From contig OZ020518.1 of assembly GCA_963971425.1 (NCBI GenBank), forward strand, positions 10,085,989 through 10,149,988: a stretch of 64,000 nt of DNA, written 5' to 3'. The position numbers were made by a program, and so were the translations under genes. The notes beneath the pieces were generated by a model. The model was not told the DNA's origin and made no database searches. It was given only the letters and a program-made list of their open reading frames with translations. The DNA comes from Bryoerythrophyllum caledonicum (lineage: Eukaryota > Streptophyta > Bryopsida > Pottiales > Pottiaceae). This document shows positions 24,558 through 36,406 of the stretch, in pieces. Within the stretch, counting starts at the first letter, position 1, and each line of letters opens with the position of its first letter.

Positions 24558-24566
24558 GGATGCGTC
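24558..24566. repeat. Left target-site duplication of the MULE (GGATGCGTC)
   Basis: The nine bases GGATGCGTC are repeated exactly at 36398-36406, immediately outside the inverted termini. Nine-base duplications are the Mutator hallmark. Confidence 0.95.
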
Positions 24567-25186
24567 CCCGGTCACTACAGTCAATCCGGGTTTGCGGTGT
24601 CAGGGCCCGGTTTTAGTCCTGACACCACGAAGAGCGGCCCTTCTCCCCAAGCGCCTTTTCGCCTCCATGCGCCCTTCTTCGCAATATAACGTTCACTTTC
24701 GCCCACAATTTTTTCGCCCTGCCCGCATCCCTTATCGGCATTCTCGCCGATAGCCCCTTCTCCCCCCGCCACGTGTACTCCAGAATGACTCGTCTTTCTC
24801 GGCGGCTGTGAAGGCGAAGTGTCATCCACATCGTTTCGTACGGCGCCGTCTTTCGCACCATCATTGTGCGAGAAGGGGAGTGCTTGTCTGCGCATGAATG
24901 GAGTTTCTTGATCTCAATCTCCCCATACAGGTCAGGTCTGTTGGGAATTCTAGCGAGACGGCGCCACCAACCGTTGCCGATAATGGGGCAGAAAGGAGGA
25001 AATGGGGGCATCAAGGGAGAAAGAAACCGGTTGGCGTGCATGAGAAGGGGGTGGAGGACCTTGATGCCGCGTTTAGGGAATTGTATCGCATGCAGACTAC
25101 CTGAAGAAACATGCTGACAAGGTTCTTCAGTTGCGCAATTCGAAGAGGAAGCAATCCAAGCTTATCGCCTACATTCTCAGGGATAG
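24567..25186 (+). repeat. Left TIR of the MULE
   Basis: Matches the inverse of 35640-36397 with scattered differences. It lacks about 100 bases present in the right TIR (35670-35772), joined here near 25142. It includes an ATG at 24898 that starts the same N-terminal peptide as the transposase (MEFLDLNLPIQ). This left copy is open only to 25104 (stop TGA). Confidence 0.9.
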
Positions 25187-27654
25187 AAGGAGGAGGCTAC
25201 TCGGTTTAGGGTTGGTTAGGCGTTCATCATGACCATCAACGTAAAACCCTAATACAGTCATGGCAAAGTTGCGTGTGGAGGCACCATTTCCCGCACCTTC
25301 GAACTGTGTTTTTTGCCATCTAATGATATATCCAGGAAGTTCAAGCTCTGTGTCAGCGATCGCTCCTGCAAAATCTTGAAATCGCCGACTCATCTTTTCG
25401 GTAAGTTTCCTGCCCTTCTTGCTTTCTATTTCATTCCATTTCGGTAAGTTCTCTGTCATCCTTTCTTTCCATTTCTTTTCGGTTTAGGGTCCCTATCCTT
25501 CTTTCATTCTATTTCAAATGTGGGGCGTTGGAAAATAAGCTGTGTGAAGATGTAGGAAATTTTGCAAAGCGTCCACGTTTAGGGTTTCAGGGTTTTAGGG
25601 TTCCCGATAATCGTTTCGGGCGATAAGGTTTCATGTTCGGCAATGTCCTACCTCGCAGGACCGTAAAAATGCCGAAGCGGCCGGGGTGTTTCTGCAAGCC
25701 ATTATTTGATGAGATCCCGTTGGAGAACATGAAAGGGATTCCGCCCACCTACAACGAAGAAACGGGGAGGATCGAGCAGCTATTTGTGATTGAGAAGGAC
25801 CACATTTGGCGCCATAGCTCAGAGGTGATGGAGGCGAGGGCCCTTATCCTGGAGCTGCATGGACCGGACTCGCCCATCGTACCGGCTGGACAAACCGGCC
25901 CCAAGCAGATACTATGCATACATTGCAACACGACGCACTAGAAGCACATGTTCAACCTCCACCACAACCATGCATTGTGCGAAGGGAAGGGGAAGGTAGG
26001 CGTGAAGATGCGGTCGTAACCCAATTTGGGAGTCAGGGATGTGGCAAACTTTGTGGCACGACTTCGGGATTGCGGGTCGGAAGAAGAAGCCATTGAGGTT
26101 TTCGACACCATAGAGCCAATAGCCACAAAGAAGAGGCCGAGGTAGACTGCCGATAATCAGGAGGAATTGATCAGTCTAGTCCCAAATAAGCGCGGCAAGA
26201 GGGTTGCATAGGCGGCAGAGGAGAACCGTCCACAGAAGCGTACCGCGGCGCCTTCACGGAAAAGGCCTCCGCCCCTGAAAGCCGAGTCCAGTGACGATAC
26301 TTCTTTGTCGGCAGAGTCGGGAGGAGATCTCAATACAGATCATGAAGCCGATAACGTAGGCACTCTAGCTGTTTACGGCGATAAGGACGTTCTTCGACCC
26401 GGAGATGATGCCTCCAGGAATTTTGCTGCCAATAACCCGGTATCCAGGGTCCGGAAGCCCGCACTCGCACCGAAGAGAGAGAGCAATTCCTCCATCGTGC
26501 ACCGGAAGTCTGAGCCTGCGGAGCAGGCTGTACCGAAGAAGAAGGTGATAAAAGCTGAAGAAGCCAGGAAGAAGGCAAGATTTGAAGAGTCCACGAAGAA
26601 GACAAAAGCTCTCAATCCCCCGGTAGTGGCAAAAAGGCTTACGGGAATGTCTGTGGACAAGAGCGCTGCGGCGATAAGGCCTCGAGCCCTGGAGGCTGCA
26701 TAGAGGTTGACAGAGACCAGTATTGCCGAGAGACCTTCCGACTCTTACATTGGCTCGCCGATAACCTCGGCCCAGATGGACTTTCGGCAGCCGCTGACAA
26801 TGGCCACGATACTTCATGCAGGCTCTGATGAAGGTGCGAATCCTGATAAGCACCTCATTCTGCCGGTCAAAGGTAGAAGAGAGCAAGATTTGGAGTTGGA
26901 GAGGGCCGAAATGATACGGCAAGCACAGGAGGATGCTGAGCGCATTTTCCTGCTTCGGAGGGTGCTCTCTCCCCAAAGGAAGGTACCGATAATGCCGTTG
27001 TACCTACTCCTCAAGCATGGTCTGCTCGACAGTATCACGATAGACAGTTTGAAGAACGAAGATGAGTTGTTGAAATACGTCTTGGGTATGGTGGAGTTTG
27101 GAGGCCACCAGGGCAGGTTCTACCAGGCTCTCGGTGCCTGCTTTTCCGAAGGGGTCGGCTTCGCCGATAACGAGGTTTCGCTTCCACAACTGACAACCCT
27201 TTGCAACCTGGCAAAGAATCACGATGGCGGTGCGTCGCAAGAGCTTTGGAAAGATGCAGTGATGGGAACGTGGGCATACATGACGCACGAGAAGGAGTGC
27301 GACGAGTATGTAGCTAGGCATACAGGCGAGGCGGAGACCACAAAGCGGTTAAGGGAGAGGTTAGCCTGCAACGAGATTCGGAAATTTGATGTTGAAAGGG
27401 CGGTGGAGAGAGAGGCTATTCAGTGGGACTTCAACAACCTCTTCGGGTATTGCGCGATGAACGAAATTCTTTGACCATTGCTACACCCATTGCCGTGGAT
27501 GTACAACATTGACGAGGCTCGAGAGGTCGTGCAGCGTCTAGCGCGGACCAGAATCGAGAGTGTCCCGTCGCCGGCTCTAGCTATGCTGTTGAAGTGTTAC
27601 TTCATTTGCAACGGGCTTTCTCGGGTGTAAGTTTTTTCTTCTCGCCACAGACTT

Positions 27655-27820
27655 GTCTCTTATCGTGTCTTCTTGTCCCTTATCGTCTCTTATCGTCCCT
27701 TATCGTCCCTTATCGTCCCTTATCGTCCCTTATCGTCCCTTATCGTCCCTTATTGTCCCTTATCGTCCCTTATCGTCCCTTATCGTCCCTTATCGTCTCT
27801 TATCGTCCCTTATCGGTTGA
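27655..27820. repeat. 10-bp minisatellite (CCCTTATCGT) inside a MULE intron
   Basis: About 14-16 units of CCCTTATCGT/CTCTTATCGT, nearly perfect. It lies between the GTAAGT donor at 27628 and the TTTTTCAG acceptor at 27841, so it would be spliced out. The unit contains TTATCG, the complement of the CGATAA motif scattered through the element. Confidence 0.95.
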
Positions 27821-29039
27821 CATGACTCCGTTGTTTTTCAGGGGCCGGAATATGTGCAACCCTAGCGTAATCCCCGGACCTGCCAGCATTGCTATGTACG
27901 TCGATGCTCCAGAGACAAATTGGGATGGGCCGTCTCAAATATACGAAGTTCTGAGTCCCTTCCTCTTCGGAAGGGACGCATCCGAACAGCACCTCTCGAT
28001 AACGCAGGTGTTCTTGCGGCTCCGCGACAATAAGCACGGCGAGCGAGATTCTGTTTCAAGCTTCATCGCAATGGTCCACGCTCGCACTGTCGTGGACACG
28101 GCAAGGAGTCACCCAGAGGACTTCGTTTGACACTGGTGTGCTGCCGATAAGGGTACCTACGAACACTGGGATACCCTGGACGAGAACTGCTTGGCGAGGG
28201 AGGATCTGGACTTCATGTATGCCGGCTTCGTTCCACGTAAGATTTATCCGATAACCCCGTCATTCATCTAACTGTTTTCTTCCTCATTTTTGGTTTTTCT
28301 GTTATTTCCATGTGTCTAAACGATAAGCCTTTTGCAGCCACTGTAGATCCTACCTGGGCACGCGAAAGGGAACTTGTAGAGGCAGATTGCAAGAACCCTG
28401 TGTCGCGTCTGGTGACGACAGAATGGGATCGACGAGAAGGGCATCCAGTGACAGCGCATGACGAAATGAGGCGGAAGACATCTACCCGAACAAGGGACCT
28501 CGAGGGTGCAGATGCCCTTCTTCACATGGACGAGGGAACCTCAAATGAATTCCGCGTCCAGAATCGGTACCCGAGGAGTAACGACGACGTAGGATTCTCC
28601 GATAAGGGTCTGGACGAAGTTACGGAGGAAGCACAAGAGCACCCTAGCGATGAAATACTTTAGGGAGGTATTCCCGATACACTCTAGGAAGAGCCCGCTA
28701 CTACAGCGGTGAAGTCACCGGTGAGTCCCGCCGACAACCCACCAGTGACGGAGTTTTCGTGGACGCAAGCAATGAATGACCATACCCTCGGCATTGCGGA
28801 GTCTTCACAGTCGCCGGTGGAGCTAACTCAATTCGACACCCCGGGTGATGATGTTATACACAGGGGTTCGGGGGAGACGGAACATAGCATGCAACCCCAG
28901 CGTCTATCGTTCCCTCTGTCGAGTCAAGGTATTGAAAACCTGGACTCTACTAACAGTCCCCCGGTGGTTCCCGAGGAGCCTTGCGTGACACCCTTGGAAA
29001 ATCATCCAATCTCAAAGAAGGCTCTCTCTTCGGACTCCA

Positions 29040-29330
29040 ATTACGCTTCTCCGCCAGGGCCTGATAACCCTACTCCTCCGCCAGAGCCCGAGAACCCTGC
29101 TAGCCCGCTAGAGCCCCATAACCATGCCAGTCCGCCAGAACCCGTTAAGCCTGCTTCAGCGCCAGATCATGATGGCCCTGTTCTAATATCTGAGCCCGAT
29201 AACCATGCTCCTCCGTCAGAGCCTGATAACCCTGCTCCTTCGCCAGAGCTCAATATGCATGCTCCTTCGCCAGGACCCGTTCAGCCTGCTCCTCCGCCAG
29301 AGCCCGATAACCCTTCTCCAAAGGAGATGA
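29040..29330 (+). repeat. Pro/Glu-rich ~33-bp coding repeat
   Basis: Imperfect 11-residue repeats built on PPEP-x-NPA-S/P within the accessory gene. Several units encode PDN with CCCGATAAC, so the element-wide motif also appears in this coding repeat. Confidence 0.7.
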
Positions 29331-29551
29331 ATCCCGAGGAGATCAGATTGGCATTGCGTTTTATCAAGGAAGCACAGGAATCGCAATTGACCAGTATTTG
29401 GGTTTATCCTAGACTCAAAGAGCGTGTTCAGAACGATATTAGGGCAAAACAAAAGGCGGCATTGTCGGGTAGAGAGGAGCGCGCTTTGAGAATACGCGAG
29501 GTATCTGGCTGCGACTTCTTACAGTCTGCTACGGAGTTCTGTCAAATCTCG

Positions 29552-29605
29552 TAATCTTCGGTCTTCAGTCTCCAGTCTTCAGTCTTCAGTCTTCAGTCTT
29601 CAAAC
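29552..29605. repeat. Short tandem repeat (CTTCAGTCT)
   Basis: About five 7-9 base units CTTCAGT / CTCCAGT directly after the stop codon of the accessory gene. They mark the left edge of the segment that lacks the CGATAA motif. Confidence 0.8.
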
Positions 29606-31350
29606 TCCTTCCCGTTGGCCTATCATGTGGTGGCTCTAAAGGGTTAAGGATAAAGGTGGGTGATAAGAAACCACGGCCTCGGACGGGTAAAACGGGACGG
29701 CTAGACCACAAGCTGAAACCGTCCAAAACATTGGCTCTAAAATTCAAACCCACGGTGACCAGCAAACGTGCCTCACCGGTCGGAACGACATAAACACGAC
29801 CGTGTGGGCAATTAACCCCACTTCGCCGCAACAAAGTTTACAAGAACAGAATTGAAATACAACTAGCCTCCAAAGTTGGCTTGGAATCATAAAAAAAGAA
29901 ATCAGACCACAAGCGACAACACACTTGTCTCCATCTTCTCTTCTCTACAAGCCTCAATTCTTCAATTCCTCCATCCTTCAACTCCAAAGTCTTCAAGTGT
30001 TCAAAAACACTAAGAAACTCAAAAGAAGTGTTCAAAAACACAATGGAAAAGTTTCACCAAAGCTGTAACCTTCAAACAAGTGACACAGATGACTCAAAAT
30101 TTTAAATACTAAGTGTAATAGCTCTCTGGAAAGCTAATTCATACAACAAACACTCCTCTAAATTTCAAGTCAATCTAAACTACTGTCCGAAAGTTATACG
30201 AGTTCAAAGTTTTGCCCTCTAGATATTCAATCGCTCATAACTTCTTCTCTAAAACTCCAAATCTCAATTGTAATAATTTTTTGAAGAGCTATGACCATGG
30301 TTTACGCACCTTTAAATTCTCAAACAATTCTAAACTACTGTCCAAAAGTTATGGACAATCAAAGTTCTGCCTACCCCTATTCATTCAGATCTCTATAACT
30401 TTTTGCTCACAACTCCAAATCTCAATTGTAATATCTTTTTATAAAGCTAAGATAGAGATGCACAGTTCCTCAGAAGCTCAAATCAAATTGAGAACTACAA
30501 AAAAAGTTCTGGTTCCTCGAAACCTCTGCCCCTCAATGGATGGCCTCGGGTTTTCACAGAATTAAAACCTCAATAACTTTTTCTCTACAATTCCGAATTC
30601 AAAATTTAAAACGAGTATGGAAAGCTCTTGAAACAAGGAATAAGATCACAAATTTTCAATTCCATACAATATAAGCTCAACGAGTTACACACAGTCAAAG
30701 TTCTGCTCCAAACCCTTGCTCTCTCACCCGCACACACACACTCACTAAGGAATCTTCCCCCTAACTTTTTCCACCTCAAGTGGACGTGGGCACTCCAGCC
30801 CATGTCACCCAATCCAAAGTACCCCACAAGGTACTTCATTACTTTCTTATCCTTTCCACTTTCAACCACATAAAATCCACTAGTCTTTTATTTATTGGAA
30901 GACGAAAAACTTAGACCCTCCAACCAACAAGATAAGTAAAATAAAAAAAAAAACTAAATAAAAAAAAATTAATCGTAAGATAGCTGATGGTACGGACGTA
31001 TAAAGGTGTTGATTCGCACAATCTGATCGCCAAGTCGTGGACTTGGTTGGCTGGAAATGTCGTGGTCAGTGGTCGCCGCCGGTCCGGGTTCGAACCCGAT
31101 CGAGCCCGTCGAGTGGTTGGGCGGCCCACGGCTTGGCTCGCTAGTGAGGCAGGAAAAATACCAGTTAACCGGCTACCTACCCCCCTGAGCAGTGACAAGA
31201 GCGGTGCAGCACCTACATGCTAACACTTGCCCAAATCCTGAAACCGTGGTTCTCACCACGACCAATCCTTTTTACCTCATCTAACCGCTAGCTGTAATCA
31301 AAACATATCCACACTGGTATTAATATCTACATGATAGAAGAATTTCCATC
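29606..31350. mobile_element. Probable nested insertion in the MULE
   Basis: Unlike the rest of the MULE this stretch is AT-rich, has no MULE-type frame and lacks CGATAA. It contains three or four imperfect ~150-base repeats (CATAACTTCTTCTCTAAAAC, CTCCAAATCTCAATTGTAAT, phrases such as CAAAGTTCTGCC) at about 30176, 30333 and 30570. Around 30938-30970 is an A-rich tract, followed by a GC-richer part with a palindromic GGTTCGAACC at 31088. I could not find target duplications, so the edges are approximate. Confidence 0.5.
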
Positions 31351-31368
31351 AGGACATCGTATACGTAC

Positions 31369-32616
31369 ATGTTGGGGGAGAATCGCGGAGTATGTACTTC
31401 AGACGGTGTTTCTTGGGAGAAAGAGCGCTCGCTCTACTACGAAGCCGAAGAGCATGATGCATCCACGATAGAGAAGAACCTCGAAATTATTGTGGAGGAC
31501 CTAAAACTCAGGTAAATGTCGTCATCTATGTTATCGTGTTCTCCGACACCTGTTGTTTATCGATACTTGTTGTCTAACATCCCCTTTCTTCTGAATTGCA
31601 GGCCTCGTTTTATTCACCCGAAGGACCTGACTGGAGGTATGAGGTTTTTCGGTCCAGACCTTCGGCAAGCCATGGATGTCTCACTTGCACTACAACACTG
31701 GCATTGCGTGCTAAAAGACAAGCGGGAAATGGAAGGCACATTTCTGGATTTCCTCCTTAGGCATATCGTCTACCGTACGAAGGAGCATGTCCGAATCCAG
31801 TATCATCACGCGCACAACTGGTTATCGGCGACGTTGCAATGCTATCTGGCGGATGAAGAGAAGGGCTGGGATGACATCGTGAGCTTTCTCAGCCGCTCGT
31901 TTCATACCACCACCAAGTTGCCGAATACCCTTATCGTCCCTTACCACAATAAGGATCACTGGAGCGTTTTCGTCATGGAGCAAAGGCGAACGTATCACCT
32001 AGACCCAGCGAAAGGTATGCACAAGGGTCGGGAAGTGGACAACTTTATCTTCCTTGTGCACATGGGATGGGCAAACGCGATGGGCGTGAGGATCGGATTG
32101 AGAAGTTGGCGAGAATGGCAGAGTCGTTCGCCGATAAGGTTGCCTCTGCCTAATCAGAAAGAAAGTTGGGAGTGTGGTTTCATGGCAGGCTTGGCCTTCT
32201 GGCAGTACCTTGTCGCACGTGGTGGGCGCAAAGAGGCGGAGGAGAAGACCGTGACAGGGACCAAATATCTAGACTGGGACGGGAAGAAGGTGTACCGATG
32301 GTTCATGCAAGCGCTCTATAGGGAGATTGTCGCACCGCTTCCGTTCCACGATGCCCTTAATCTATGTGGACAGGATACGATGGAGTTCGGAAGCGGAAGT
32401 CCGGACGTAGTTTTCGTGGAAGCCGGTACAAAGATGGCGAAGAAGAAGAAAGTCCCAATTCTCGGTATTTCAGAGACAGTGGGGGATCGTGATCTTCAGG
32501 GCTTCAACGTGCTCACAAACCCACCAATGACTTGAGGAAGGTGGAAGAAGTCAACCGCGCCAAAAAGCCCGAAAAAATCAAGAAAACCAAAGGGCACCAC
32601 CAAGATGAAGAAGTAG
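31369..32616 (+). pseudogene. MULE-borne Ulp1/SENP-like cysteine protease (C48), late stop
   Basis: Predicted to cleave SUMO-like or ubiquitin-like conjugates; its role in MULEs is unknown. Exon 1 starts at ATG 31369 (MLGENRGVC) and ends at donor GTAAAT 31512. Exon 2 starts after TTGCAG at 31602 (PRFIHPKDLTGG). The catalytic set is complete: His in KDHWSVFV (codon 31957), Asp in YHLDPAKG (32002), Gln in LPNQKESW and Cys in WECGFMAG (32173). A TGA at 32533, where CGA would restore Arg, cuts off a basic tail (KSPKKSRKPK) that otherwise ends at TAG 32614; the catalytic domain itself is uninterrupted, so this may still make a protease. The upstream exons may have been shared with the 25.6-29.5 kb gene. 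Confidence 0.75.
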
Positions 32617-32995
32617 GCGATAAGGGGGGGTTGTACACAAGCGATAGACTCCAGGAATTTGTACAGATTAATAGGATGCCAATGTTGTACATTTCATTCA
32701 TTGTAAATGACAAATTTTTCGATAGCGTACATAAACGGAATTTGAGACCTCCTTGCAGAGGCCTGTAAGCGGAACTTAAAATCCAGTCTTTACCGATTAT
32801 ATTGAATGTTGAGTTTTAACTTCATAACTAAAGAAATATCACTTGAATCACTGGAAATTTCAAGAGATGCATGAAACTTAATCTAAAAGCATCTTATTGG
32901 CAGTATTCCACCGATAAGATTACTAATGGTTATCAGCGTAGGTTTGCAGCTAAAATCCTGTGCCCTTTAAATTCAACCACATCGGAGCCGATAAC
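32617..32995. other. Intergenic spacer between the convergent MULE genes
   Basis: AT-rich, with CGATAA motifs at 32913 and 32989. It would contain both 3' ends. Confidence 0.6.
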
Positions 32996-35900
32996 CTAAG
33001 TCGTTTCTTGAGTTAGTCTTTCGCTAGCTGGAACGGACCTCACCCGAAAACCTCTGGAATCCAAGAAGTCATGCAACCTTCGGAGCCTCATTCCAAGGCC
33101 GTCTTCATTTGTGGAGAGCGGTGCAGCTATCTCATGGAGTGGATGAAGCATTCCGGCTTCGATTTCAGCCTCCAACCTTGAGAGGGTGGCGTCGGTGTTG
33201 TGCAAAGCTGCATCCAAGTGCCTTGCTAGCAACGTTTGCCGATAAGCCTTGTCGAGTAGCTTCATGACAAGCTGATGCATACGATTAAGGTCGCATACCC
33301 ATGTCTCGCCTAATTCTCAAAGGTTGGAAGCCACTCGGGTTACATCTCCAGTTTCGGTATCAGAGGGGACATCATTATCGGGGAAGCCCTCGGTATTCGG
33401 GTGTCGACCATTGTGTTGGCAGAGAAGATTCATCATTCCTCCTTGGATTGTGCCACTAAAGGAGCCCAGATATCGAGCAATTTTTCGCTCCACCCGGTCA
33501 GGTCTTGTCATTTTCAGGACCTTAATCTGGTGCTTACAGATGCTACCTTTCTGGGAATGAACACATTGGCAGACGGCCCATTCGGTGCATGGATTGTATA
33601 CCGCATACGTAATGTGTCTCCTATTCGAGGATTTAACGCATGCAGGACCTCCCGACCACTCGGGCAAGGTGACCACATTATCGGGAATTCTATTTGTTTG
33701 GTTGATTGCATTAACCATGATCTGCCGCTGCCTCTTGTTCTTTATAAAACCGTTCAGCTTACACCAGTGACTCTAATCATACTTTTTGATGACATTTCCA
33801 GTGAGCTCATGAATAAGCCATTCCATCCTTCGGCCGATAAGCTTCCTTTTGGATTGCCGGAGCACTGCTTTCATGTTAGAATGGTATGATTCGATTGCTA
33901 CAGTGGTGTCCTGGCCAACATGGGGGATTTTCCAATCTCCCACAACCCACATTTTGATTTTCAGGAGCCATTCATTGTCGAAGTACTTCCAGTATGCATC
34001 AGCGTCTGGCAAGAGAGCCTTAGCTTCGCCGTAGACGTGCCGCATCCACTCTACCAAATTCCACACCTTATCGCCGGGAGCTCTCGCCGAAGGGTCTTGG
34101 AAGTCACTAGGTGTCTCCGATACGTACATAAGTGAGCCCACAATTCACAAGGCTCCGGCCCTCGTCTCCATGTCTTTCAACTTAGCACATGCATTGTTCT
34201 GCCACGCTCGACGAGCATGCGAGAGACATAGAAATAGATGCGAGTTCGGCCAAACCTCCCTGCAATAACGCAAGGTGTCGATAAGTACAACTCGCCGAAG
34301 GCCCGTCACCCGATAACGTAAGAATACTAAATCGCTTACCGAAGAGAGTTGATCTCATTATCGGCGTCGTCAAGTACAAAGGCAGTGGGTCTCCAGTCCG
34401 GCCTTATCTGCACCAACTTCTGCTTCAGAGCGCGCATCCAAGGCACCAGATCTGTTTGTTTGGATTTCGCAGTGATCACGAAAGCCATTGGAACACCATT
34501 TCTCCACTCGTCAAATACCATCATCGTGAAGAGTGGATACTGGACTCGCAAGCAAGAAATTAAGCGGTATGGAAGTGAGTGCTCTTAAATTTTAGATGGA
34601 CCCTACATGGACCACGGTATAGGTATGTGTACCTTTTTGTTGTTCGTTGCGAATGTCCCGTCTATAGCAATAATGTTATCGTGACTGTATTTCAGCATCA
34701 TGTGCGTCTGAAATGGGGTTTGAATCCCAATTACGAAAGGTACGTTATCGGCATTCAGTACTCCGTCAACCTTGCTGCCCGGGTCTTGGTAGTAAAAAAC
34801 CATACCTCAGTTTTCTCTTACCCACATTCTGACACTCTCAGCGTCGTTGTCGTGTTTCTCGTATAGTTCTTTCGCACGGACTCCGCATATGTTGCAGATG
34901 TCCTCCATGCTAGAGAAACAATCCCGAGAAGGCGTAAGAGTGCCCTCATCGCGTGCCTTTAGTACCAGCTTCTGGTACTTCTGTATTATAGCTGCCATCG
35001 GAACTTGCTCCTCAAATTGCCTGAGAACCCAAAGCCTTACTTCCTCCGACATGTACTTCCGAAAGCGGAGCTTTCTCCTCTGCACATTGTCCTTATCGTG
35101 GACGATGAGGCCCTGTGTGTCGACATGTTCCGAGCAAAAGTATCCTATCTCGGCGATATATGGGAGATAATAGTACTTCTTTACGTAGAATCGACATTGG
35201 CAGCCCACTTTCATAAAGCCCCTCTCCTTTGCATCAGTGGCACGAGGGCCTTTCTGGCCAGCGCCGGACGTAACTTGTTCCCCTTTGTGATTGTATTTCG
35301 ATGGCGTTGGTATCATTTTGGGCGTGATAGCTTGGATCTTGTCCTTGTTGTCTTTGGGACTGTATTGACAACGCCATCTGCTTATCGGCAATGACCATTA
35401 AAGATACGTGCAGTACTGAAGAGATATTACGGCACAGCTGATAAGCAAATCTACCGTGCATATCGTGATATCAGAGCTCGAGATTCACTTACCACTGGTA
35501 CTCGATGTGGCAGTTCCACCGATAGTGCGTCTTCTCGCCGACGTTTGTGGGGTCGTTCTTGTCGCGGACGAGGGTAGTCTCTACATCCTTTTGGCCAGAC
35601 TGCTCACCCTCCACAAAATCCGAGATCCTATCCCAAGGAATGTAGGCGATAAGCTTGGACTGCTTCCTCTTCGATGATTGCGGATCCTCTACGAACCTCG
35701 TATCATTCTCGGCCTCCATCTTCCACCTAAGACATTTCCATGTCAAAATTCCTGGAGGAGGGTTCAGTAATGAATCGCGCATCCGAAGTACCTTGTGACC
35801 GTGTTTCTTCAGGTAGTCTGCATGCAGGCCTTCTCGAAACGCGGCATCAAGGTCCTCCACCCCCTTCTCATGCACGCCAGCCGATTTCTTTCTCCCTTGA

Positions 35901-36013
35901 CGCCTCCACTTCCTCCCTGCTGCCCCGTTATCGGCAACGGTTGGTGGCGCCATCTCGCCAGAATTCAATGTTGGCGTGTCCTGTATGGGGAGATTGAGAT
36001 CGAGGAACTCCAT
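32996..36013 (-). pseudogene. MULE transposase with DDE motifs and SWIM zinc finger, four in-frame stops
   Basis: It would cut and rejoin the element's ends in the nucleus. Exon 1 starts at ATG 36013 inside the right TIR (MEFLDLNLPIQ) and ends at GTAAGT near 35489. Then come a Cys/His DNA-binding region (WNCHIEYQ, GCQCRFYVKKYYYL, YFCSEH), the first catalytic Asp in IIAIDGTF (34660), a short intron whose splicing joins NNKK to YPLFTMMVFDEW, the second Asp in FVLDDADNEI (34369), a GTAAGC intron, CLSHARRAW, WKYFDNEW, and IESYHSNMK with the likely Glu (33890). A SWIM finger C-x-C-x8-C-x-H lies at 33530-33571. Stops at 34807, 34145, 33317 (TGA) and 33773 (TAG) break an otherwise continuous frame. 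Confidence 0.9.
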
Positions 36014-36397
36014 TCACGCCGAGACAAGCACTTCCCTTCCGGCAGGGTACAAGACGACACAATAGATGGTGCGAAAGACGGCACCAAACGCAAACGATGT
36101 GGATGACACTTCACCTTTGCAGCCACCAAGAAGGACGGGTCATTCTGGAGTACACGTGGCGGGGCGAGAAGGGGGTTTCGGTGATCCGAAGAAGGCGGGG
36201 AGAGAAGGGGCTGTCGGCGAGAATGCCTATAAGGGATGCGGGCAGGGCGAAAAAATTGTGGGCGAAAGTGGACGTTATCGTGCGAAGAAGGGCGCATGGA
36301 GGCAAAAAGGCGCTTGGAGAGAAGGGCCGCTCTTCGCGGTGTCAGGGCTAAAATCGGGCCCTGACATCGCGAACCCGGATTGACTGTAGTGACCGGG
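35640..36397 (-). repeat. Right TIR of the MULE
   Basis: Inverse of 24567-25186 plus the ~100-base block missing on the left. It carries the transposase start codon and first coding part, so promoter and N-terminus lie inside the TIR. Confidence 0.9.
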
Positions 36398-36406
36398 GGA
36401 TGCGTC
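36398..36406. repeat. Right target-site duplication of the MULE (GGATGCGTC)
   Basis: Exact copy of 24558-24566, directly after the terminus CTGTAGTGACCGGG. Confidence 0.95.

Follow-up and report, generated by a model that had tools for sequence, protein, structure and literature searches.

The closest described systems are the VANDAL elements of Arabidopsis, Mutator-like elements (MULEs) for which VANC21 binds the word YAGTATTAY and VANC6 has been linked to AGTTGT(C/A)C (PMC5735166). Both words are abundant within the VANDAL family to which they belong, form fast-changing tandem arrays and mark methylation loss (PMC5735166); related VANC proteins differ in their targets, and VANC is less conserved than VANA, the transposase (PMC5735166; PMC10398659). 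In Drosophila, BEAF-32B, which is a BED-finger protein, binds CGATA words in clusters without fixed spacing or orientation (PMC5021357). In the literature surveyed, sequence-specific anti-silencing is described for Arabidopsis VANDALs. The TnpA protein of the maize element Spm/En has repeated subterminal 12-bp sites and is linked to reversal of methylation. Here we analyze a MULE at positions 24567 to 36397 of a 64,000-nucleotide stretch of Bryoerythrophyllum caledonicum (Bryopsida; assembly GCA_963971425.1, contig OZ020518.1, positions 10,085,989 to 10,149,988), the whole of which we call the window. The word CGATAA (TTATCG on the other strand) is enriched along this element, occurs throughout its family, is retained better than matched words, forms arrays that differ in size between copies and has shifted in form in a sister family. 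We infer, with a probability of about 0.5, that CGATAA is a family-specific site bound by a protein of the element's own, most likely the product of its second gene (the left gene, 25669-32535, plus strand), and that the protein acts against silencing.

Enrichment of CGATAA along the element

The window contains 67 copies of CGATAA/TTATCG, 56 of them inside 24567-36397. Sites were counted in a core of 9,911 bp, defined as the element minus an intron array (27651-27820) and a nested insert (29601-31350, the limits given in an earlier note on this DNA). The core holds 42 sites, against 3.94 expected under an order-1 Markov model and 3.61 under order 2; CGATAA is its top 6-mer and CCGATAA its top 7-mer (26 against 1.0 expected). 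The earlier note had described the word as dispersed over exons, introns, terminal inverted repeats (TIRs) and spacer, and as scarce in the flanks and the insert. Both observations stand: the left flank has 7 sites in 24,566 bp (10.1 expected), the right flank has 4 in 27,603 bp (9.2 expected), and the insert has none in 1,750 bp. Genome-wide, CCGATAA occurs 28,103 times in 437 Mb, or 0.064 per kb (the reversed word, 37,651 times), and its density in the element is 40x that of the genome. A chance high-scoring word was ruled out with nine other window stretches of 7.6-10 kb (tandem repeats masked), which contained no comparable 6-mer: only poly-A passed a log10 p of -6.3 (reaching -13.0), against -26.0 for CGATAA in the core.

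Words that differ from CGATAA by one base are not enriched to a comparable degree. The highest in the core are CGAGAA (18 vs 6.95 expected), CGAAAA (14 vs 6.96) and CGACAA (10 vs 5.0); TGATAA (7 vs 4.2) and CAATAA (7 vs 4.0) are lower, and CGATCA is absent (6.4 expected). Because CGAGAA is clearly enriched in the sister copies L031 (29 vs 7.4) and L035 (26 vs 7.4), this weaker G-form may belong to the motif. The base preceding the 42 sites is C in 26, G in 7, A in 6 and T in 3, the base following is G in 19, C in 15, T in 7 and A in 1, and there is little information beyond two bases per side. The plant I-box, GATAAG, had been suggested as one identity for the motif; the preceding C is conserved, yet the required G follows in only 19 of the 42 sites, and the I-box/GATA reading was rejected on this base pattern. 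With CGATAA masked, the top 8-mer of the window core is CCCTTCTC/GAGAAGGG (10 vs 0.5), which also appears in L033 and L035.

The sites are distributed over the following features (positions in the window):

24558..24566: target-site duplication, left copy, 9 bp, GGATGCGTC
24567..36397: Mutator-like element with 42 dispersed CGATAA/TTATCG sites, inverted-repeat ends and a flanking 9-bp duplication
24567..25186: left TIR; motif sites 24732(-), 24978(+), 25162(-)
25605..25626, plus strand: two motif sites upstream of the left gene, 25605 and 25621
25669..27624, plus strand: left gene exon 1, with an N-terminal, zinc-finger-like Cys/His cluster and homology to P0004/P0005; 6 in-frame stops; motif sites 26151, 26349, 26379, 26672, 26759, 26987, 27165, all sense
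27625..27842, plus strand: left-gene intron with the 10-bp array GTC(C/T)CTTATC; array at 27655-27815, 14 exact words, antisense to the gene
27843..28238, plus strand: left gene exon 2, matched in sister copies; motif sites 27997, 28145
28239..28339, plus strand: left-gene intron; motif sites 28249, 28321
28340..29460, plus strand: left gene exon 3, including a 27-bp tandem array at 29045-29319; motif sites 28600, 29197, 29305
29461..31357: nested insertion without the motif, absent from the sister copies compared
31358..31512, plus strand: left gene exon 3, resumed beyond the insertion
31513..31602, plus strand: left-gene intron; antisense motif sites 31531, 31557
31603..32535, plus strand: left gene last exon, Ulp1-like cysteine protease domain; motif sites 31822(-), 31931(-), 32132(+)
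32536..32996: left-gene 3' untranslated region (UTR) and spacer; motif sites 32618, 32912, 32989, all plus
32997..36013, minus strand: MULE transposase gene, exons 36013-35493, 35380-34633, 34539-34340 and 34259-32997, 4 in-frame stops; exon motif sites 33240, 33375, 33678, 33835, 34068, 34358, 34676, 34745, 35093, 35647, 35928; intron motif sites 34279, 34311, 35382
35628..36397: right TIR, overlapping the first transposase exon; motif sites 35647(+), 35928(-), 36275(-)
36398..36406: target-site duplication, right copy, 9 bp, GGATGCGTC

By this exon model 26 of the 42 sites are exonic, 7 fall within the 573 bp of intron (array excluded) and 9 in TIR, UTR or spacer. The exon sites are sense in two frames (16 and 5) or antisense (5), a third sense frame giving a stop, and those in the first frame, 16 of 26, encode Asp followed by Asn or Lys. 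The claim that the word is read in different frames is thus correct, as is the claim that codon use does not explain it. Shuffles of synonymous codons gave on average 2.86 sites in the left gene, where 15 are observed, and 2.78 in the transposase gene, where 11 are observed; none of 2000 shuffles reached the observed number in either gene. The left-gene shuffles ran to 29554 (94 bp inside the insert), and 2 of the 15 sites lie within the 27-bp array. Occurrence on both strands was also borne out (26 plus, 16 minus), with the qualification that orientation is clustered, in 13 runs against 20.8 expected (p=0.007). Sites 35382, in a transposase intron, and 28321, in a left-gene intron, adjoin 3' splice sites (GCCGATAAGCAG and ACGATAAGCCTTTTGCAG, respectively).

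The ends of the element are inverted-repeat blocks of 205, 93 and 214 nt that are 86-94% complementary, and these long TIRs, together with a 9-bp target-site duplication (8-11 bp required), identify it as a MULE. The right TIR holds the start of the transposase reading frame; since the left TIR repeats that coding stretch, one end has seemingly been copied onto the other, lengthening the TIRs. Two of the three left-TIR sites, 24978 and 25162, are matched by a counterpart in the right TIR. The nested insertion reported earlier is present, but its limits, given as 29.6-31.35 kb, are corrected to 29461-31357, and it is a later insertion, because sister copies join 29460 to 31358. A TCTTCAG heptamer array lies inside it at 29555-29602; similar TCTTCA arrays are found at L051:6622-7084, and a relative of the nested insert may sit in L051. 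Both genes of this copy are broken: by the exon model the left gene has 9 stops and the transposase gene has 4.

The two genes and their arrays

The transposase, scanned as joined exons with X at the stops, matches the MULE transposase domain PF10551 (E=5.3e-13, 49.7 bits, cut-off 27.6), and its nearest named relative, from the moss Ceratodon purpureus, is 37% identical. At some sites the motif replaces residues common to its relatives, giving ADNE for AQAE/AQGE and HDN for HAS/HKK/HRS; at others the encoded residues (DN of NADN, HDK) are common to some relatives. A similar comparison of the seven exon-1 sites of the left gene with P0004 and P0005 found one (EADN) plainly compatible with the residues of both relatives, one (ADN against GDK/GDT) compatible in P0004 only, and five not compatible.

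The left protein begins with a Cys/His cluster that is conserved between families (relatives of the window copy and L048, alignments compared side by side), and its spacing recalls BED fingers, which is suggestive only. At the other end of the protein, the Ulp1-like domain has H119, D134, Q185 and C191 in order, conserved between the window and L048, a member of the sister family described below. The catalytic pattern of Ulp1/C48 proteases is His, Asp, Gln and Cys in that order. In profile scans PF02902 gave a weak match to a trimmed L048 piece alone (E=0.0071, 16.6 bits, under the cut-off of 20.7), and was listed neither for a longer L048 piece nor for the window domain; SENP2 gave a weak match to the window domain (E=0.5) that was not found with L048. 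A protein search with the C-terminal part of the left gene gave no match, and a scan of viral contigs found no left-gene relatives.

Two arrays in the left gene carry the word. The 27-bp coding array encodes a proline-rich 9-residue peptide unit; it has ten units in the window, with two exact words and two TGATAA, and about 13 (13.4) in L052, where the consensus bears the motif. The intron array, antisense in the window and in the copies inspected, holds from 0 to 14 words across 31 copies, mostly in 10-bp steps; in the outgroup copies L001 and L002 this intron has a single word and lacks the array. The array pattern has 354 matches in the genome and the reversed pattern none; 17 of 32 array places adjoin a scored family copy, among the matches listed.

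Sister copies and other MULE families

When the intact relative P0005 was searched against the species' own genome (437,360,962 bases, 894 contigs), 667 candidate copies of the left gene were obtained, of which 68 were scored; 9 of the 68 have no stop inside the matched exon. CGATAA is found in all 30 loci cut out (~5 kb each), with between 6 and 30 copies (expected, where listed, 1.4 to 2.4), and is the top 6-mer in 26 of them. In the other four it ranks second in L003, after the overlapping CCGATA, and in L019, third in L026, after a GA repeat, and outside the top three in L004, a truncated copy with 6 sites. Seven stretches of ~10 kb around family copies have 41, 33, 31, 38, 55, 42 and 42 sites, arrays included. 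Relatives of the element therefore carry the word, partly at shifted positions, which was the sister-copy check named in the earlier note.

Several lines of evidence indicate that the word has been kept in these copies. Sites of the window are intact in 499 of 740 comparisons, against 811 of 1669 for composition-matched CG words; by locus, the motif is ahead in 32 of 35 and level in 3. The 35 loci represent 30 elements, five of them twice, and share ancestry, so that a p-value for this comparison is not to be taken literally. Site totals are equal (740 in the window, 741 in the copies) though one third of the sites sit elsewhere. Sites found in at least 50% of 29 copies number 15, whereas 19 control words average 1.84, and sites found in a single copy number 10 against 7.4. 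Because single-copy sites are near the control rate and high-frequency sites are in excess, the word is kept more often and not made more often, as it would be at a mutational hot spot.

Gains from neighbouring words were evaluated for twelve substitutions, six at the two end positions having been excluded. The change from CGAGAA to CGATAA, which in the left gene is Glu to Asp, is common to at least 4 copies in 4 of 15 contexts, against 4 of 193 elsewhere (p=0.0011, uncorrected for the twelve tests); it is the only substitution significant alone, and the pooled figures are 6/39 vs 85/1716 (p=0.013). Of the 83 non-motif states at the high-frequency sites, 47 are CpG transitions; another 33 are single changes of other kinds, and 3 are multiple changes.

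A search with the transposase relative P0001 gave at least 134 matches; 67 of 1,524 candidates were scored and 12 loci were cut out. Six of these loci (L041-L043, L045-L047), which form one family, contain ACGATA 18-21 times (2.8-2.9 expected) and CGATAA 11-12 times (2.6-2.7 expected). A 10-kb stretch of the same sister family, L048, contains the shorter word CGATA 99 times against 24.7 expected, followed by A, T or G. Here too the excess is found in coding sequence: synonymous shuffles gave 4.5 CGATA where exon 1 has 16 (0/1000 shuffles reaching the observed number), 2.9 where the Ulp1-like exon has 8 (2/1000) and 4.2 where one transposase exon has 9 (9/1000). Identity between L048 and the window element is 66% for the transposase, 32-33% for the left protein and 43% for the Ulp1-like domain. 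The sister family (L041-L043, L045-L048) includes dozens of nearly identical transposase matches, many of them 853-aa open frames without stops, and its inverted repeats are at least 129 bp long at 100% identity (the stretch begins inside the left repeat); it is a recent burst.

An excess of CGATAA was not found in the distant MULEs L036-L040, L049 and L050 (1-5 vs 1.1-3.5); the transposases of L049 and L050 are about 33-36% identical to that of the window. Words of their own were sought for these elements post hoc, with weaker results: AGTGTYAC, found 12 times in L049 (0.7 expected), groups with L036-L039 and L049, and TGTAACA, found 14 times in L050 (2.2 expected), groups with L040 and L050. 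Simple AAG repeats score equally high in L036-L039. Clear own words for the two distant families were not accepted, being weaker in the 10-kb stretches, and the two words are kept as candidates only.

Readings of the word and known systems

The earlier note proposed a site for protein binding or regulation that is dispersed along the element and maintained there, and this is well supported. VANC-type anti-silencing targets, absent from its guesses, are the best-fitting analogy. In the reading we favor, CGATAA would have accumulated along the whole element as a family-specific binding site, and its proposed reader is the left product, with its zinc-finger-like N-terminus and Ulp1-like C-terminus, whose evolution is far more rapid than that of the transposase. 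Closely packed sites over 10 kb, and tandem arrays serving as possible nucleation points, would let the protein recognize its own family; once bound, it might strip silencing marks (DNA methylation or SUMO-dependent repressors) while host genes are spared, as VANC does on VANDALs.

Several observations weigh against this reading. VANC21 targets are mainly non-coding, whereas 26 of the 42 sites here lie in exons. The copies L004 and L019 have only 6 and 13 sites. CpG transitions, which are a signature of DNA methylation, make up 47 of the 83 non-motif states, so that any protection of many copies was short-lived. How densely a copy carries the motif shows no relation to how many stops it has (rho 0.004, 28 copies) and so fails to separate live from dead copies. 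The Pfam profile zf-BED had no match in P0004, P0005, L048 exon 1 or the cut-out Cys/His cluster, and DUF1985, the VANC domain, had none in the left-gene pieces scanned, which did not include 28340-28687 by itself. The AlphaFold models were of unusable quality, with mean predicted local distance difference test scores of 37.4 for the Ulp1-like exon and 36.1 for P0005.

Among the alternatives, it is unlikely that the transposase binds CGATAA and uses the dispersed sites to find or coat its own element, the TIR sites included. The transposase does have a SWIM-type domain (read by eye) besides the MULE domain PF10551, and the TIRs hold motif sites, two of the three on the left with a right-end counterpart. 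Transposases of this kind are known to require sites at element ends, not sites along 10 kb; moreover, the shift from CGATAA to CGATA accompanies a left protein that is 32% identical and a transposase that is 66% identical, so that specificity tracks the faster protein better, in a single comparison. Nothing in the data favors the transposase, which had been proposed as binder, over the second element-encoded protein, and a packaging role, another earlier suggestion, is unsupported, as DNA transposons have none known. That a host transcription factor, of GATA/MYB type or other, binds the word and that copies were gained for transcription is improbable. GATAA-type words are known plant promoter elements and the word is dense in introns, but the sites run through exons on both strands and GATAAG is not the form that is kept; a host factor should also be the same for all elements, yet the sister family has a relaxed word and the distant MULEs show no enrichment.

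Functionless spread by array slippage, gene conversion or mutation bias seems to us similarly improbable. Slippage does enlarge the 10-bp and 27-bp arrays, many lost sites reflect CpG decay, and part of the transposase end recurs in the left TIR; against this, dispersed sites share only ~2 flanking bases per side, single-copy gains are near the control rate and retention exceeds that of matched words. A signal at the RNA level, for splicing, export or translation of element transcripts, would suit the 21 of 26 exon sites that are sense, a bias that can equally follow from tolerated amino acids; with the intron array antisense and sites also in TIRs and spacer, we consider it very improbable. 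The chance that codon use or amino-acid content of the two related genes accounts for the word is close to nil: the predominance of Asp-Asn and Asp-Lys in one frame is what it would predict, but the shuffles reject it, and the word is no sparser in introns, TIRs and spacer than in exons.

A broader form of the reading we favor is held more tentatively, as a possibility that falls short of even odds: an anti-silencing code that evolved independently outside the angiosperms, in which each MULE family of this genome would have its own address word. The word would extend into coding sequence, displacing residues that are otherwise shared, and its reader would be a rapidly evolving finger/Ulp1-like protein that the element encodes and that changes specificity along with the word. 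As the word contains a CpG, methylation and protein binding would then be in competition for the same bases. We found no description of a dispersed word in a non-angiosperm MULE in the literature, which was covered in part. If the interpretation is true, a distant host would provide another case besides the VANDALs, in which 68 copies are scored and candidate copies number up to hundreds; the dated sister series, the relaxed-word family and the families with other words would make the origin and switching of such a code testable by comparison. The implication for the transposase gene would be that a DNA-binding code can override protein sequence.

Comparison with known systems reveals both differences and likenesses. 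Like Spm/En with its TnpA, the element is proposed to encode a protein with a repeated short site; Spm sites are confined to the ends, whereas those of the window element run through the whole element and its genes. The word has the same core as that of BEAF-32B, CGATA, and lies in an element that encodes a protein bearing a zinc-finger-like cluster; BEAF-32B is an animal host protein and the left gene has no zf-BED match, so the shared word may be coincidence. Anti-silencing is described for VANDALs and proposed for the window family. Unlike YAGTATTAY and AGTTGT(C/A)C, the word contains a CpG; unlike VANC targets, which are mainly non-coding, most sites are in exons, though introns are denser; unlike VANDALs, the element has long TIRs and a non-angiosperm host; and unlike VANC, the left protein has a zinc-finger-like cluster and an Ulp1-like domain, with no DUF1985 match in the pieces scanned. 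The likenesses are nonetheless extensive. As in VANDAL21 (Hiun) with VANC21 and VANDAL6 with VANC6, the element is a MULE in which a short word is enriched in one family and rare elsewhere; arrays of the word occupy an intron of a non-transposase gene and vary in number between copies; related families have different words, here CGATA(A/T/G) in L048; the variable protein has tandem peptide repeats, here the 27-bp, 9-residue array; and the transposase is more conserved than the second protein, at 66% against 32% identity.

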